From: Nitrosopumilus ureiphilus
Lineage (GTDB): Archaea > Thermoproteota > Nitrososphaeria > Nitrososphaerales > Nitrosopumilaceae
Direction: 5' to 3'
NCBI RefSeq assembly: GCF_013407185.1
Contig: NZ_CP026995.1
Location: 1,137,913-1,201,912 of the forward strand
DNA length: 64,000 nucleotides
Below, one piece after another: positions 34,379-39,657 of this stretch (within the stretch, counting starts at the first letter, position 1; every line of letters begins with the position of its first letter). A program made the translations under genes and the position numbers. The notes beneath the pieces were generated by a model. It worked only from the letters and a program-made list of their open reading frames with translations. It searched no databases and was not told the DNA's origin.

Positions 34379-34560
34379 AATTACAAATTTTGTTTTAAAT
34401 AATTCTTTAAAAATTATCTTAAGTTATATATCATATACAAAAATTAAAAAATAAGAACATAATTAAATTATTTTATTTTTACAATTCATTGACTAATCAG
34501 ATATCTATTGTTTGAACATTTCAGAATCAGAGAGGCTGCCTTCGGCCCACCGCCTCGGTA

Positions 34561-34770: not shown

Positions 34771-34941
34771 TCAAGAGTAATCATCCTCAACAAATATCCA
34801 GGACAATCCCATTACATCCATTGCACAAGTATTTTGTCCAGATATTATTTCAGGGCGAATTTTTTCTCTTTCTTCTACTGGTGTTTCGACCAGAATTTTT
34901 GTAGGCTCAGATTGCCTTGGTTTCAAAGTTAAACTTTGCAT
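34771..34941 (-). CDS. small protein, paralogue of the 38301 gene; box-controlled
   Basis: 56 residues from the ATG at 34941. The N-terminal third matches the 38301 product: MQSLTLKPRQSEPTKILVE then PVEERE, against MQLLLSKKTSHSEATNNLVE then PVEERE. The similarity stops after this motif. An AGGCATGCCACAA box lies 45 nt upstream with a TATA-like caaataa between. After the TGA the frame stays open for another 17 codons. Function unknown. Confidence 0.55.
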   Translation of the reverse strand: MQSLTLKPRQSEPTKILVETPVEEREKIRPEIISGQNTCAMDVMGLSWIFVEDDYS

Positions 34942-34986
34942 TATGTAGAATCAAAGAATAATTATTATTTGACTATGCCCAACAAT

Positions 34987-34999
34987 TTGTGGCATGCCT
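34987..34999 (-). promoter_or_regulatory. AGGCATGCCACAA box, copy A
   Basis: Minus-strand AGGCATGCCACAA, 45 nt before the ATG at 34941. On the plus strand it covers the first codons of the 34994 gene. Copies A and D are identical over 18 nt (AAAGGCATGCCACAAATT). Confidence 0.6.
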
Positions 35000-35854
35000 T
35001 TTATGGAACAAGGAACGATTTATGGAAATTTACATGCATACAAAATGTATACAAGACCCACAGCACAACGTCTTTTTGGAACTTACTCATTTAGAAAAAA
35101 GCAAGGAATAAAACATCACGAAAATGCTCAAAGAGCGTTAGAGATTCTAGCTTTGAATGGCACACTTACTACATGGGGAATGGCAAAAACACATCTCGAT
35201 GATTCCGGTGGGATTAGGACTAAAGAAAAAGAATACAGAAGACTTCTTGTTGGCAGAATGGCAAGAGGAAAACACACCATAGGATTGTTGGAATCAGGAT
35301 TGGTGGTAAAAAATGGAAAAAGATATGTGAAAGCACCTGCAGATCAATATAGATTATCATTACATGGAATTTTGTATTGTTTGGATGTTTTAGATTTAAC
35401 AGATAAACAAATTGATACAATTGCTGAAAAATATGCAGAAGTACTTCCAATGGTTTTTGGGAAATGGGAATATCTAAAATCAAACATAGGAAAAGAGGTG
35501 TACAGATTAAAGAATCTAGCAGGAGGGTTGTTTATGGATAATATTCAAATTGCAAAGATTTCAAACTTTCCGGTTTATGAGTTGATGACATATTTGAATG
35601 TGAAATATCAGAATAATTTTGAACAGATAGAAGAAAAAGATTTGGCAAATCAAATATCTTTTTGGTTTTATACTAATTTGCTTGTACCAACAAGATTTAG
35701 ATCCTCTGGAAAACGTTCATCGTTAGAGATAAAGCCATGGACAAAAATTATTCATGATGACATAACCATAAAAAAATGGTATTATGAATTTGTAAACGAA
35801 GCCATAAAATTTTATAATAATCGCTTTAATAAATTAAAAAAATTAGAAAAATAA
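34994..35854 (+). CDS. predicted DNA-binding protein next to the box regulon
   Basis: 286 residues, basic. The region at about 45-95 (NAQRALEILALNGTLTTWGMAK then a basic GRMARGKHTIGLLE with a hairpin-like GLVVKNGKRYV) reads as a winged helix-turn-helix. The rest is helical and unrecognised. Start is ATG 34994, lying inside box A, or ATG 35003 just outside it. The second would leave the box in the gene's own promoter and permit autoregulation. Confidence 0.6.
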   Translation: MPFMEQGTIYGNLHAYKMYTRPTAQRLFGTYSFRKKQGIKHHENAQRALEILALNGTLTTWGMAKTHLDDSGGIRTKEKEYRRLLVGRMARGKHTIGLLESGLVVKNGKRYVKAPADQYRLSLHGILYCLDVLDLTDKQIDTIAEKYAEVLPMVFGKWEYLKSNIGKEVYRLKNLAGGLFMDNIQIAKISNFPVYELMTYLNVKYQNNFEQIEEKDLANQISFWFYTNLLVPTRFRSSGKRSSLEIKPWTKIIHDDITIKKWYYEFVNEAIKFYNNRFNKLKKLEK

Positions 35855-35886
35855 AACAAATGATAAAGCCTTGTTCATTTTCATAA

Positions 35887-36252
35887 TTATGCATACTGGC
35901 CAACAATTTCTTCTAGTTGTTCAAAAGAATATGGCTTGTGAATTGTTGTGATTAGTGACATACTTTTTGCCTTTAGGTGTTTTTTCTCATCCATAGAAAA
36001 TGCAGTAATTAGGATGACATTTGCTTCTGGATCAAACTGTTTCATTTTAAAAAAAGCATCAAATCCATCCATTTTGGGCATCTTTATGTCCATAATTGTC
36101 AAGTTTGGGCGAACATCTTTGTATTTGGATACAGCGTCTTGTCCGTCTTCAGCAGTAACCACATCATATCCCATACTCCTAACCATGTAAGATGTATTTT
36201 CTAGCAGATCTATATCATCATCTACTAGCAAGATAGTTTTCTTCAATGACAT
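35887..36252 (-). CDS. single-domain response regulator (CheY-like)
   Basis: 121 residues, receiver domain only: acidic pocket D11/D12, phosphoacceptor D55 (LTIMDIKMPKMDG), T83 (LITAFS) and K106 (HKPYS). All key residues are present and there is no output domain, so it must act through a partner. It is 53 nt downstream of the histidine kinase gene on the same strand, so they form an operon and a cognate pair. Confidence 0.9.
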   Translation of the reverse strand: MSLKKTILLVDDDIDLLENTSYMVRSMGYDVVTAEDGQDAVSKYKDVRPNLTIMDIKMPKMDGFDAFFKMKQFDPEANVILITAFSMDEKKHLKAKSMSLITTIHKPYSFEQLEEIVGQYA

Positions 36253-36305
36253 ACATCAAACAAAGAAGTCATTATGATAAAACTTTCGGAAAAATCATCC
36301 ATAAT

Positions 36306-38183
36306 TTATTCTGATGAGATAGGCATAGTTATGATAAAACAAGTGGGATTATTTTGGGCAGAAATTGTTCCCTTGTGTTGTTCAATGATATTTTTGCATG
36401 TAGATAGACCCAACCCGGTTCCCTTTTGTTTAGATGTTACAAGTGGTTGAAAAATATGTGATAATATCTCTTCAGGAATATTAGAACCAGAATTTTGGAT
36501 TTTTATTATTATATTAGAATTTTTTTGTTCTATCATACATGAAATTTTCCCATCATCTTTTCCAATTGCTTGAATTGCATTAAGGAAAATATTGATAAAA
36601 ACAATTTCCAATTTTTCAGAATCGCCAGTTATTTGAAGTTCAGTTTCGGGGATTTCTAGTAAAATGTTATGAGGTATTTCTATGGAATTTTTTGCAGATT
36701 GCATTAAGTCACTTATTTTAATTAGTTTTACATCTAATGGTGTAACACGGACATAATTTAACACATCATTAATTTGATGCGATATTGTATCAATAGAACG
36801 ATTCATTCGTCTGACAACGTCTTTTATTTCATCATCATTTTTAGAATTTTTCTGCAATATTTCAGCTGAGCTCTTCACAGTTGCTAAAGGATTTTTTATG
36901 TTGTGAGCCATGCTTGCTGAAACTTCTCCAATAGCTGTAAGCCTCTCATTTTTTATTTTGACATTGGCCTCTGCCAACTGCTTTTCTGTATTGATCAATT
37001 TTTGTAGATTTTTTGCCATATCATCAAAGGATCTGCTAATTGTGTTGATTTCATCAATTTTGTTTGTTTTTGTATTTGTTGTCTTAAAATCACCATTAGA
37101 AATTGAATTAGCAGTTATTGCCAAATGTTTTAATGGAGACGAAACAGTACTGGAAATTAAAAATGCACCAATGATTGATGCAATCATACCTAAAATCGAT
37201 ACTCCGATGATTGAATTTCGTAATTCAACAAACTCATTAACAATAGATGAACTGTTTTGCTCTACTACAACTATCCAGTCAAATCCTTCAAAAGTTCTAT
37301 ATCCAGTGGATTGTGCATAAGAGACAAGACGAAAATTATCTACATCATCATCATCACCTAATTCAAAAAATCCAACGTCATTCCCTTTTTGTATAGTTCT
37401 AAAATAGGAAATCGGAGACTCATTCAAGAAAATTTCTTTGTTTGAGAAAATTTGTGCTCCATCATGATCTAGTAACAAAACAGTCCTTCCTGGAATGGTA
37501 AGAAGGGCAGATTCTTGAATAAAATCATTTAATAAATCATCAAGTGTAATCAAGACTCTTAAAATTCCAATAAAATTTCCGTCTGTATCCATGACACTGT
37601 ATGCAAACTCTATAGAATAGTTTTGATAGGTCTCATTAAATTGAAGTTTTCCAATATATTGTCCATTTTCTTTTGTTTGTTGCCACCATTCCTCGTCACT
37701 TTGTGAATAATCTGATATTCCAGAAGCCAAAGCAACATTGGCACCATAAGCATTAGTAACAAAAAGTTCTTCTACAACATCATAGCCATATTCATCTTGA
37801 TAGAACTCTATTGTTTCTAAAAGATCTCTTGTTAGAGCAACATCAGATACACCTCCTATGAAAGGATTATCTTCTGTAAATTCTATTTCCTGTTCTTTTA
37901 TTTGTAAATACGCTTTGATATTTTCAAGTTTTTCAAATTCTTTATTTGAATCCAATAATGTATCACGAAGCAATTCTGTCTTTGATAATTCCTGAAAATC
38001 AGATATTCTGCTTTCTATATGCCTATCCAAATTTTGAATCATATTAAATGCAAATCCTTCATTTCTGGAGCCCAGGAGTTTTTTGATTTCCTGTACAGTC
38101 AAATCAAAAGTAACCAATCCTGTAATCGTAAAAGTAAGAGATATTCCAAACATGACTGCAATTATTAGAAAAGATATTTTCAA
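36306..38183 (-). CDS. membrane sensor histidine kinase (dCache-HAMP-HisKA-HATPase)
   Basis: 625 residues: TM1 (2-25), an extracellular dCache-like sensor (about 30-325; contains DVVEELFVTNAYGANVA and GRTVLLLDHDG), TM2 (about 328-350), HAMP (about 350-405), HisKA with phospho-acceptor H427 (ASMAHNIKNPLATV), then an HATPase with N box NIFLNAIQAIG and G box GTGLGLSTC. It should sense a small extracellular molecule and phosphorylate the adjacent CheY-like protein. Box copy B lies 62 nt upstream of its ATG, in reverse orientation. Confidence 0.9.
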   Translation of the reverse strand: MKISFLIIAVMFGISLTFTITGLVTFDLTVQEIKKLLGSRNEGFAFNMIQNLDRHIESRISDFQELSKTELLRDTLLDSNKEFEKLENIKAYLQIKEQEIEFTEDNPFIGGVSDVALTRDLLETIEFYQDEYGYDVVEELFVTNAYGANVALASGISDYSQSDEEWWQQTKENGQYIGKLQFNETYQNYSIEFAYSVMDTDGNFIGILRVLITLDDLLNDFIQESALLTIPGRTVLLLDHDGAQIFSNKEIFLNESPISYFRTIQKGNDVGFFELGDDDDVDNFRLVSYAQSTGYRTFEGFDWIVVVEQNSSSIVNEFVELRNSIIGVSILGMIASIIGAFLISSTVSSPLKHLAITANSISNGDFKTTNTKTNKIDEINTISRSFDDMAKNLQKLINTEKQLAEANVKIKNERLTAIGEVSASMAHNIKNPLATVKSSAEILQKNSKNDDEIKDVVRRMNRSIDTISHQINDVLNYVRVTPLDVKLIKISDLMQSAKNSIEIPHNILLEIPETELQITGDSEKLEIVFINIFLNAIQAIGKDDGKISCMIEQKNSNIIIKIQNSGSNIPEEILSHIFQPLVTSKQKGTGLGLSTCKNIIEQHKGTISAQNNPTCFIITMPISSE

Positions 38184-38245
38184 GGGATTAACTAGCCAAG
38201 ATCAATTAATTGTGAATTTAAACATTCACTAATTTAAATGAAAAA

Positions 38246-38258
38246 AGGCATGCCACAA
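38246..38258 (+). promoter_or_regulatory. AGGCATGCCACAA box, copy B
   Basis: 42 nt before the ATG at 38301, with TATA-like gacaaatac between. It also lies in the upstream region of the divergent kinase gene. Confidence 0.6.
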
Positions 38259-38300
38259 TTTTTCCGCTATCGACAAATACTTTTTTCACATTTCTATAGC

Positions 38301-38540
38301 ATGCAACTGCTATTAAGCAAAAAAACAAGCCATTCTGAGGCTACAAATAATCTGGTTGAAGGAATACCAGTAGAAGAAAGAGAAAATCCTTTGCAGATAC
38401 AATCAATGCCTGAAAAAACACTACAAATAGAATCTATTTTTCATCAAACTAGATTAAATATAGAAATAGGAATGTACTGGATGTTAAGCAAGTACCAACA
38501 ATCATTACATAAAAAACATCACCAAGAGACAACAAAATAA
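38301..38540 (+). CDS. small protein, paralogue of the 34941 gene; box-controlled
   Basis: 79 residues from ATG 38301. This start is preferred over 38238 because the similarity to the 34771-34941 product begins exactly here and because the box then has the common spacing. The shared N-terminus ends in PVEERE; the C-terminus is helical with a His/Lys-rich tail (KYQQSLHKKHHQE). No known family. Confidence 0.55.
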   Translation: MQLLLSKKTSHSEATNNLVEGIPVEERENPLQIQSMPEKTLQIESIFHQTRLNIEIGMYWMLSKYQQSLHKKHHQETTK

Positions 38541-38585
38541 AATATTTGAGTCAAACAAATAAACTAAAAAGAACAGGTTTGTAGT

Positions 38586-38598
38586 AGGCATGCCACAA
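38586..38598 (+). promoter_or_regulatory. AGGCATGCCACAA box, copy C
   Basis: 47 nt before the ATG at 38646, with TATA-like gattaaataac between. Confidence 0.6.
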
Positions 38599-38645
38599 TC
38601 CAAAATCTTTGATTAAATAACATTGTTTTTGCTGTTTTTTTTGGG

Positions 38646-39194
38646 ATGACTTGGTGTAAACAGAATAGTTTAATTTTAGCATTAATTTTGATGTCATCAT
38701 TTTTCATTCCAAATCTTTTGTCTGAAGCATATGGAGTGAAACTAAGTATTACTGAAATAAGATGTAAAAACCATCTTCCCAACTACATCAAACTTGGTGA
38801 AATAAATTACAAAGAAAGATACAAGAACAATAGAGTAGTAGATAATTGCATAAAATTATTCAAAGATTCAAAATCTGGACTCTATTTTGATCCCTCAAAA
38901 GTAATCATTACCAAAAATAGTAACACATCATTTAAAATGATATATGATAAATTAGTTGGGGAAAAATATCATATTATAAAATACCAAGTTTGCAATAACG
39001 AAGAAAAAACAAAACAGAAAATATTATTTCAATCAAGTTCTGAAAAATCCTTAATTATCCTTCCCAAATATCTAGCACCAAATCAATGTACTTATTTTTG
39101 GACTGAGGTTGTTTCTGGAAACGTTGATTCAATCACAATATCATGGGATACAGGAAATGAAAAATCACTAAAAATTAGAAAGACATTCAGGTAA
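38646..39194 (+). CDS. secreted Cys-containing protein; box-controlled
   Basis: 182 residues with a signal peptide (about 1-29; LILALILMSSFFIPNLLSEAYG). The mature part has Cys at RCKNH, DNCIK, QVCNN and QCTYF, enough for two disulfides, and a beta-rich end (VDSITISWDTGNEKS). No family recognised. Probably exported. Confidence 0.65.
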   Translation: MTWCKQNSLILALILMSSFFIPNLLSEAYGVKLSITEIRCKNHLPNYIKLGEINYKERYKNNRVVDNCIKLFKDSKSGLYFDPSKVIITKNSNTSFKMIYDKLVGEKYHIIKYQVCNNEEKTKQKILFQSSSEKSLIILPKYLAPNQCTYFWTEVVSGNVDSITISWDTGNEKSLKIRKTFR

Positions 39195-39256
39195 TTATCA
39201 ACTAAACTTTTCTAAAAACTGAAAAATGGGATTAAAAATCATAGGTAAAAAGGTAA

Positions 39257-39269
39257 AGGCATGCCACAA
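39257..39269 (+). promoter_or_regulatory. AGGCATGCCACAA box, copy D
   Basis: 43 nt before the ATG at 39313, with TATA-like gtcaaataac between; identical to copy A over 18 nt. Confidence 0.6.
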
Positions 39270-39312
39270 ATTAAAAGTAATTGTCAAATAACAAAAGTTG
39301 TTAGTTTGGTTC

Positions 39313-39657
39313 ATGAACTCTTTGAGAGATACAAATTTCATCAAGAGTCAAAATAACGAAGAAAAAACCACTCTCTTTGTTTCTCGTAATCAGCCCATAA
39401 ATTCTAATGATGATATAATTCTCTCAAAGAGTATTTTTTATGCCTGCAATAGATGCGACGGAGCATTAATTCCAATATCAATCTGTATCTTTTGCAAAAG
39501 GCCATCTTTACGAAGTTGTACAAATTGTGATATGACTATCGATACCAGATATCATGAATCCTGTAAAATTTTGATATCATTTGGAAATACAATTTCAAAA
39601 AAAAAGTACAGAGGAATTAAACGTATGAAAAAACAAATTATCGGAGTGCAACATTGA
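39313..39657 (+). CDS. double zinc-ribbon protein; box-controlled
   Basis: 114 residues from ATG 39313 (TTG 39298 is also possible). The second half contains CNRCDG, CIFCKR, CTNC and HESC, giving four metal-binding knuckles for two zinc ions. The N-terminal 50 residues are polar and unstructured, and the C-terminus is basic (KKKYRGIKRMKK), as in a nucleic-acid-binding protein. Role unknown. Confidence 0.6.
   Translation: MNSLRDTNFIKSQNNEEKTTLFVSRNQPINSNDDIILSKSIFYACNRCDGALIPISICIFCKRPSLRSCTNCDMTIDTRYHESCKILISFGNTISKKKYRGIKRMKKQIIGVQH

Follow-up and report, generated by a model that had tools for sequence, protein, structure and literature searches.

We describe here a locus of the marine ammonia-oxidizing archaeon Nitrosopumilus ureiphilus lying in a window of 64,000 nucleotides, i.e., the whole stretch of DNA that was analyzed. 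Three genes at its center encode a predicted winged-helix protein (the 34994 protein, also called the regulator below), a stand-alone CheY-like receiver, and a membrane histidine kinase; around them stand four copies of a box, AGGCATGCCACAA, each followed by a TATA-like element and a gene. The features, in window coordinates, are as follows.

34771–34941, minus strand: sm56, 56 aa (MQSLTLKPRQSEP..LVETPVEERE..AMDVMGLSWIFVEDDYS), member of a putatively box-regulated small-protein family
34964–34970, minus strand: TATA-like AAATAAT of box 1, 16 nt downstream of that box
34987–34999, minus strand: box copy 1 (AGGCATGCCACAA), between the divergently oriented genes of sm56 and the winged-helix protein
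34994–35854, plus strand: winged-helix regulator, 286 aa, with a predicted N-terminal MarR/PadR/RosR-like winged helix-turn-helix and an all-helical C-terminal domain
35887–36252, minus strand: CheY-like stand-alone receiver, 121 aa, convergent with the regulator (Response_reg, 2.4e-23)
36306–38183, minus strand: membrane histidine kinase, dCache_1 - HAMP - HisKA - HATPase_c by domain search
38246–38258, plus strand: box copy 2, exact AGGCATGCCACAA match
38275–38281, plus strand: TATA-like AAATACT, 16 nt after box 2
38301–38540, plus strand: sm79, 79 aa, with the N-terminal LVE..PVEERE part in common with sm56 and a different C terminus
38586–38598, plus strand: box copy 3, exact AGGCATGCCACAA match
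38615–38621, plus strand: TATA-like AAATAAC, 16 nt after box 3
38646–39194, plus strand: secreted Cys-containing protein, 182 aa, with homologs near the three-gene unit in several relatives
39257–39269, plus strand: box copy 4, exact AGGCATGCCACAA match
39286–39292, plus strand: TATA-like AAATAAC, 16 nt after box 4
39313–39657, plus strand: double zinc-ribbon-like protein (CNRC..CIFC..CTNC..HESC)

Dinucleotide shuffles of the window give an expectation of 0 copies of AGGCATGCCACAA, and the four boxes are confirmed as real, beyond chance. A preliminary description of this DNA had listed the four copies at these positions and had seen no fifth full copy, and both statements were borne out: a search of the whole window for a fifth AGGCATGCCACAA returned none, and the core GGCATGCC, searched alone, was found at the same four sites only. 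The gaps of 45, 42, 47, and 43 nt from box to next ATG given there are all correct. At all four boxes, exactly 16 nt separate the box from the TATA-like element (AAATAAT, AAATACT, or AAATAAC) that lies 3′ of it. The view taken there of the box as a promoter element preceding TATA/BRE, at a fixed spacing, is supported.

Box promoters in the genome and the genus

The genome (2.17 Mb, single contig) was searched by patterns. The sequence GGCATGCCACAA has seven exact copies genome-wide and its reversed control has one. With a compound rule of box, 16 nt, and TATA, i.e., GGCATRCCACAA-N16-AWATA, nine exact sites and one with 1 mismatch were found, i.e., 10 sites at 0–1 mismatch; at 2 mismatches there is one site, the operator of a paralogue, and 3 mismatches give background. 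Only four of the 10 sites fall in the window, so that the "local" regulon of the preliminary description is not supported, the roughly ten sites being spread over the whole genome. It had named copies without a link to start codons as refuting, and this is not what the genome shows, an ORF starting 42–47 nt downstream of the box at nine of the ten sites. The products are mostly proteins of 48–79 aa: five of the nine box-led ORFs encode small proteins with a GLSWI(F/L)-type C-terminal motif, and the other four encode a 79-aa relative, a GTG-started 60-aa protein, the secreted Cys protein, and the zinc-ribbon protein. Downstream of several of these ORFs stand co-directional genes for secreted proteins. 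The two paralogous small proteins of the preliminary description are thus part of a larger family, with members at box sites genome-wide. In Pfam and NCBIfam searches the small proteins matched no family, and neither did the zinc-ribbon protein, homologs of which stand behind a box in G030, G051, L180, L186, and L187. At the tenth site (position 1740837 of the window's own genome, G000), a structured leader lies ahead of a 120-aa secreted protein. Taken together, the site is conserved where the regulator gene itself starts and recurs, with the spacing unchanged, before several unlinked genes, as in the definition of a regulon. Exact boxes at L013, L014, L015, and L019/L025 were set aside as coding or chance.

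A promoter logo was built from the 88 distinct sites of all loci fetched, with one mismatch allowed in the box and one in the TATA. An ORF of at least 40 aa starts 38–51 nt later at 58 of the 88 sites (random positions, 13%), and these 58 include a few paralogue-type or chance sites. Between box and start codon there are 42 nt in 32 of the 58 and 43 nt in 14. The logo of the 58 promoters reads AA-GGCATRCCACAA-N7-GNYAT-N4-AWATA, with GNYAT at +19 to +23 and the TATA at +28. GNYAT emerged without being imposed (A22 in 53/58 and T23 in 50/58) and is the inverse of ATRCC; the two half-sites form an inverted repeat, ATRCC-N11-GGYAT, in which GNYAT has 2 nt in common with the 6 nt that precede the TATA. 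Apart from the spaced half-site and the TATA, the sequences flanking the boxes are unrelated. The control was 86 TATA-matched promoters without a box, a first set of seven having been too small; among the 86, "AT" stands at the same place in 13 and GNYAT in one. That the conserved AT before the TATA is a mere BRE is disfavored by the 13/86 in these controls, and also by its position, which shifts between clades as that of the TATA does not.

We then surveyed 95 genomes of the genus for an ortholog of the 34994 protein, defined by at least 83% identity, and found it in eight: G000, G017, G030, G036, G049, G051, G059, and G081. Seven of the eight hold 7–15 sites at 0–1 mismatch (15, 12, 11, 10, 9, 7, and 7), as against two of the 87 other genomes with at least four; the remaining ortholog genome, G036, has 0 such sites and two relevant sites at 2 mismatches. 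The two exceptions without the ortholog are G067 (eight sites, mostly near-identical and GCAA-type) and G089 (six sites, with a 58% homolog), and G038 has one exact box and the small protein but no close ortholog. Fisher's exact p value for this co-occurrence, 2.6e-8, is descriptive only, given the relatedness of the genomes and a threshold set with the counts already known; the counts are not independent, the box-positive genomes being close relatives. In the ortholog-free L065, L068, L069, and L100, homologs of the small proteins show no more than chance resemblance to the box (6–8 of 12 bases), and therefore the box goes with the regulator rather than with the small protein. Orthologous loci of relatives also conserve the box, the lack of which there the preliminary description had named as refuting.

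The structured leader recurs. At six box sites, position 1740837 included, TGGCGAAAACGT...TTACGTTTCACCA forms a long imperfect hairpin at the expected transcription start; five leaders that were folded have z scores of −2.2 to −6.4, and three of the 28 consensus pairs show compensatory change. A covariance model of the leader gives strong matches in the regulator genomes G000, G030, G049, G051, G059, and G081, and its weak matches led to a second RNA of 69 nt (GTGCGACATAGACATAGCATGTCATAGTGATGCCTTCGTATCCAGACAGCAC...), carried by several further genomes within the genus. The model made from the 69-nt RNAs alone recovers most of the box-driven leaders (E 1e-9 to 2e-5), so both RNAs share a core. 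The 69-nt RNA of G017 has its own promoter, GACATGCCACAA-N16-ATATT. An Rfam search gave no match for the leader RNA.

The regulator, its start-codon box, and its two-component neighbors

The start ATG of the regulator at 34994 lies within box 1, and the same start is conserved in orthologs (MPSNEQGT...): in the window and in the orthologs alike, the CAT of GGCATGCC, read on the opposite strand, is the ATG that opens the winged-helix gene (ATG-CC, Met-Pro). By arithmetic, the TATA of box 1 is ~24–30 nt upstream of this ATG on the opposite strand, so a single TATA could serve the two divergent genes and leave each of them near-leaderless. When named genomes were scanned for the regulator profile, 45 loci were found, in Nitrosopumilus, Nitrosarchaeum, Nitrosotenuis, Cenarchaeum, and Nitrososphaeraceae-labelled records, and in the 200 sampled genomes of the class the family is confined to the window's own family, with 11 genera. 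Of 42 homolog loci that were fetched independently, 35 have a CATRCC core upstream of the regulator gene, on the divergent strand (background, 5%); in most of the 35 it overlies the regulator start codon, and in CATRCC loci the TATA starts ~28 nt from the start of the box. Among paralogous clades, the core is kept and the spacing of the second half-site varies: N11 is that of the window's system; N7 is that of clade B (GGCATACCGTAATACGGTAT), present in the window's genome at ~493.7 kb with a 55-aa DLMGLSWVLFEER protein of its own; and N6 is that of a clade whose divergent gene encodes a 48–50-aa protein. Judged by its placement in sequence, the box would be the regulator's own operator, binding to it being what we infer.

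The preliminary description had predicted a winged helix in the 34994 product, and structural modeling agrees. An AlphaFold2 model from 39 homologs reached pLDDT 89 and pTM 0.88, with a predicted winged helix at residues ~16–132, for which the best matches (Z ~10, 77–88 residues, rmsd 2–3) are MarR, PadR, and haloarchaeal RosR-DNA complexes. The C-terminal domain (pLDDT 83.5) is large, all-helical, and conserved, and a fold search with it alone gave no convincing match (best Z 3.1). Neither Pfam nor NCBIfam has a family for the regulator; none of the 39 homologs matched a Pfam HTH family at E 0.01, including PF12840 (HTH_20), MarR, and PadR, and among PDB sequences the regulator profile had insignificant matches only. 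In relation to the MarR/PadR superfamily, the winged-helix fold is present in the predicted model, a resemblance of fold only, and membership by sequence profile was not found.

The two neighbors carry the domains and residues of a putative two-component pair. The kinase carries HisKA (1.9e-13), HATPase_c (9.2e-20), and the H-box ASMAHNIKNPLA; the receiver, as read from the translation, has a phosphorylatable Asp and the conserved acidic, Thr, and Lys residues (D12/D13, D55, T83, and K106). Of the 43 loci with enough sequence, 41 have both receiver and kinase next to the regulator, which makes a conserved unit of the three genes that the preliminary description had noted together; L196 and L209 are homolog loci without the receiver. 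The receiver is convergent with the regulator in 36 of the 41 loci and tandem in five, flipped in one clade, and since both arrangements keep receiver and kinase, adjacency outlives orientation. Across clades only the core of the kinase matches; therefore, the sensor parts differ. Full-length frames of regulator homologs span ~285–332 aa and none was found to hold HTH and REC in one polypeptide; a receiver/winged-helix fusion, sought in 200 genomes of the class, was not seen.

Possible readings of the box and known archaeal systems

The reading that we consider probable is that the box is the operator, i.e., an upstream activating site, of the 34994 winged-helix protein, in a chain from kinase to receiver to regulator by which targets would be activated and the regulator's own gene repressed. 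Briefly, the dCache histidine kinase, on a putative signal, would hand a phosphoryl group to the stand-alone receiver, which would act by protein contact on the separate winged-helix protein; the latter would bind the inverted repeat, with GGCATRCCACAA at its outer edge, just upstream of BRE/TATA. About ten near-leaderless transcripts may be turned on in this way, for the GLSWIF-tail small proteins, secreted proteins, the zinc-ribbon protein, and one mRNA with the structured leader. At its own gene, where the box covers the start codon and faces the divergent promoter, binding would activate the divergent gene and would repress the regulator, because the site sits on its start. Points that speak against this reading are G038 with its box and no close ortholog, G036 with the ortholog and only 2-mismatch sites, G089 with six sites and a 58% homolog, the close kinship of the box-positive genomes, the failure to find a fusion, and the receiver-free loci L196 and L209.

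Archaeal activators sit just upstream of BRE/TATA, e.g., Ptr2/Lrp-type proteins, TFB-RF1, and TrmB at some promoters, and the core half-site lies 16–28 nt upstream of TATA at every target. This position is against a possible but unlikely alternative, i.e., that the same protein on the same operator is a repressor, which the phosphorylated receiver releases. The second half-site touches the BRE by the 2-nt overlap described above, and a protein bound there would block TFB; moreover, the nearest folds are of the MarR/PadR type, whose members are mostly repressors, and a box across the regulator's own start codon fits repression at that gene. Between clades, however, the second half-site shifts and the distance from core to TATA is constant, which favors contact with the initiation complex over simple blocking.

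It is also unlikely, to much the same degree, that kinase and receiver are mere neighbors and that the winged-helix protein works as a one-component regulator with a ligand of its own in the helical C-terminal domain. The size, conservation, and lack of a clear fold match of this domain, as well as the fact that no fusion protein was seen, are in its favor; receiver and kinase nevertheless stand next to the regulator in nearly all loci despite the flipped receiver and the exchanged sensor parts of the kinase. We find it improbable that some other factor reads the box (a different regulator, or one of the multiple TFBs for which it is an alternative promoter element) and that the winged-helix protein is only one of several targets. 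Ammonia-oxidizing archaea (AOA) do encode several TFBs, and G038 has its box without a close ortholog, but the box ends 16 nt ahead of the TATA, outside the BRE, throughout Nitrosopumilaceae its core keeps to the start codon of this one regulator family, and the per-genome site counts track the ortholog. Almost no credence can be given to a repeat, a mobile element, or a chance AT-context motif without regulatory role: G067 with its near-identical sites, some clustered within 6 kb, is suggestive of it, but the absence of copies in shuffles, the unrelated flanks, the spacing logo, the uniform orientation and distance relative to start codons, and the conservation at orthologous loci all contradict it.

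The operator proposed here resembles those of Ptr2/Lrp-type, TFB-RF1, and TrmB activators in lying immediately upstream of BRE at a fixed spacing to TATA; it differs in belonging to another protein family, in sitting on the regulator's start codon, and in its link to a two-component pair. With MarR, PadR, and RosR, the regulator shares the predicted winged-helix fold, but it is twice as long, has the helical C-terminal domain, and matches no sequence family.

Most archaeal receivers lack a DNA-binding output, and among the response regulators of Thaumarchaeota about three quarters consist of a bare receiver for which no output is known (Galperin et al. 2018, PMC5847659). The same study describes thaumarchaeal REC-only genes that occasionally adjoin divergent genes of arCOG03067 (HTH_20/ArsR-type), i.e., Nmar_0452-0453 and Nlim_0095-0096, an interaction that its authors call undemonstrated. 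Those pairs are like the present one in that a lone receiver gene stands by a predicted DNA-binding gene in AOA and the receiver may work via a separate protein. They are unlike it in being HTH_20 and divergent, whereas here the 39 members have no Pfam HTH match and the arrangement is convergent or tandem; and their description includes neither a kinase nor an operator, a regulon, or small proteins, whereas the present system has a kinase and small proteins together with a proposed operator and regulon. LtrR and FilR1 are archaeal response regulators with an HTH or wHTH fused to REC (PMC5847659); the order of kinase, receiver, and winged-helix output controlling transcription is alike (here as suggested by the genes), but REC and HTH are in one protein there and in separate adjacent genes here.

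A literature search that covered few subscription journals gave no earlier description of the box, the regulon, the small proteins, or the RNA, and passages of a marine transcription-start paper (PMC5069720) gave nothing on the box or regulon. We lean toward the view that a three-protein unit, i.e., a kinase, a bare receiver, and a separate unclassified winged-helix partner, recurs in Nitrosopumilaceae as paralogous copies, each with an operator variant over the regulator start codon and dedicated small proteins, with a structured leader RNA also in the regulon. If true, such a unit would explain how the abundant REC-only regulators of AOA reach transcription. Conserved gene order ties one such receiver to a winged-helix protein, which is in turn tied to a defined operator, a regulon, and a spacing rule. 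The route from bare-receiver signals to promoters becomes directly testable, and the regulon would place small proteins of unknown function, secreted proteins, and a novel structured leader under one common regulator.

Paralogous regulator systems and box-like sites

Contig C1:491500-501000 of the window's own genome (locus L105), operator near 493698-493730: paralogous system B
Loci L168, L169, L171, L215 and L218-L221: third regulator clade
Contigs C9, C24, C29 and C86 of genome G067: box-like sites

System B comprises a winged-helix gene, a receiver and a kinase; the perfect palindrome ATACCGTAATACGGTAT sits on the start codon of its regulator, and a 55-aa GLSWVLFEER protein is encoded divergently. 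In the third clade, CATACC-N6-GGTATG lies at the start region of the regulator, and the divergent gene encodes a 48-50 aa protein (MSKRITIVLQDDLIKKLRARQ...) resembling ribbon-helix-helix proteins; the receiver is tandem, not convergent, in L215 and L218-L221. G067 carries seven near-identical sites, GGCATACCGCAA(A/C)ACAATAT(C/T)AATTGTAATATA, four of them within 6 kb on C86; they may represent a box family that has expanded or been duplicated.

Small proteins and the flank of the 56-aa gene

Window 34527-34560: GC-rich inverted sequence GAGGCTGCCTTCGGCCCACCGCCTC

The small proteins look modular in build (A1; L010, L016 and L125 against L001), with a common N-terminal part, MQ...LV(E/G), and at least three kinds of C-terminal part (GLSWIF-acidic, EIxMYWxLSKYQQ and KRRCI). 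Downstream of the 56-aa gene, in an AT-rich gap, GAGGCTGCCTTCGGCCCACCGCCTC may be a hairpin or terminator.

Leader RNA and the 69-nt RNA

L005, C1:1740705-1740786, minus strand: structured leader RNA, own-genome copy
L253, L255, L256, L257, L267, L268, L269, L258: further copies of the leader
L260, L261, L262, L263, L264, L265, L266, L270, L271: conserved 69-nt RNA

The conserved, structured leader RNA (80-85 nt, with some compensatory pairs and no Rfam match) has its 5' end at the expected start of box-driven transcription, and secreted proteins of 120-200 aa are encoded 3' of it. Several Nitrosopumilus genomes carry the 69-nt RNA, which has the core GATGCC-TTCG-ATCC-GA in common with this leader. 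In most genomes the 69-nt RNA has no box upstream; the palindrome TTGATTT...AAATCAA and a separate TATA of the RNA's own lie there instead, which suggests that its control has been rewired.
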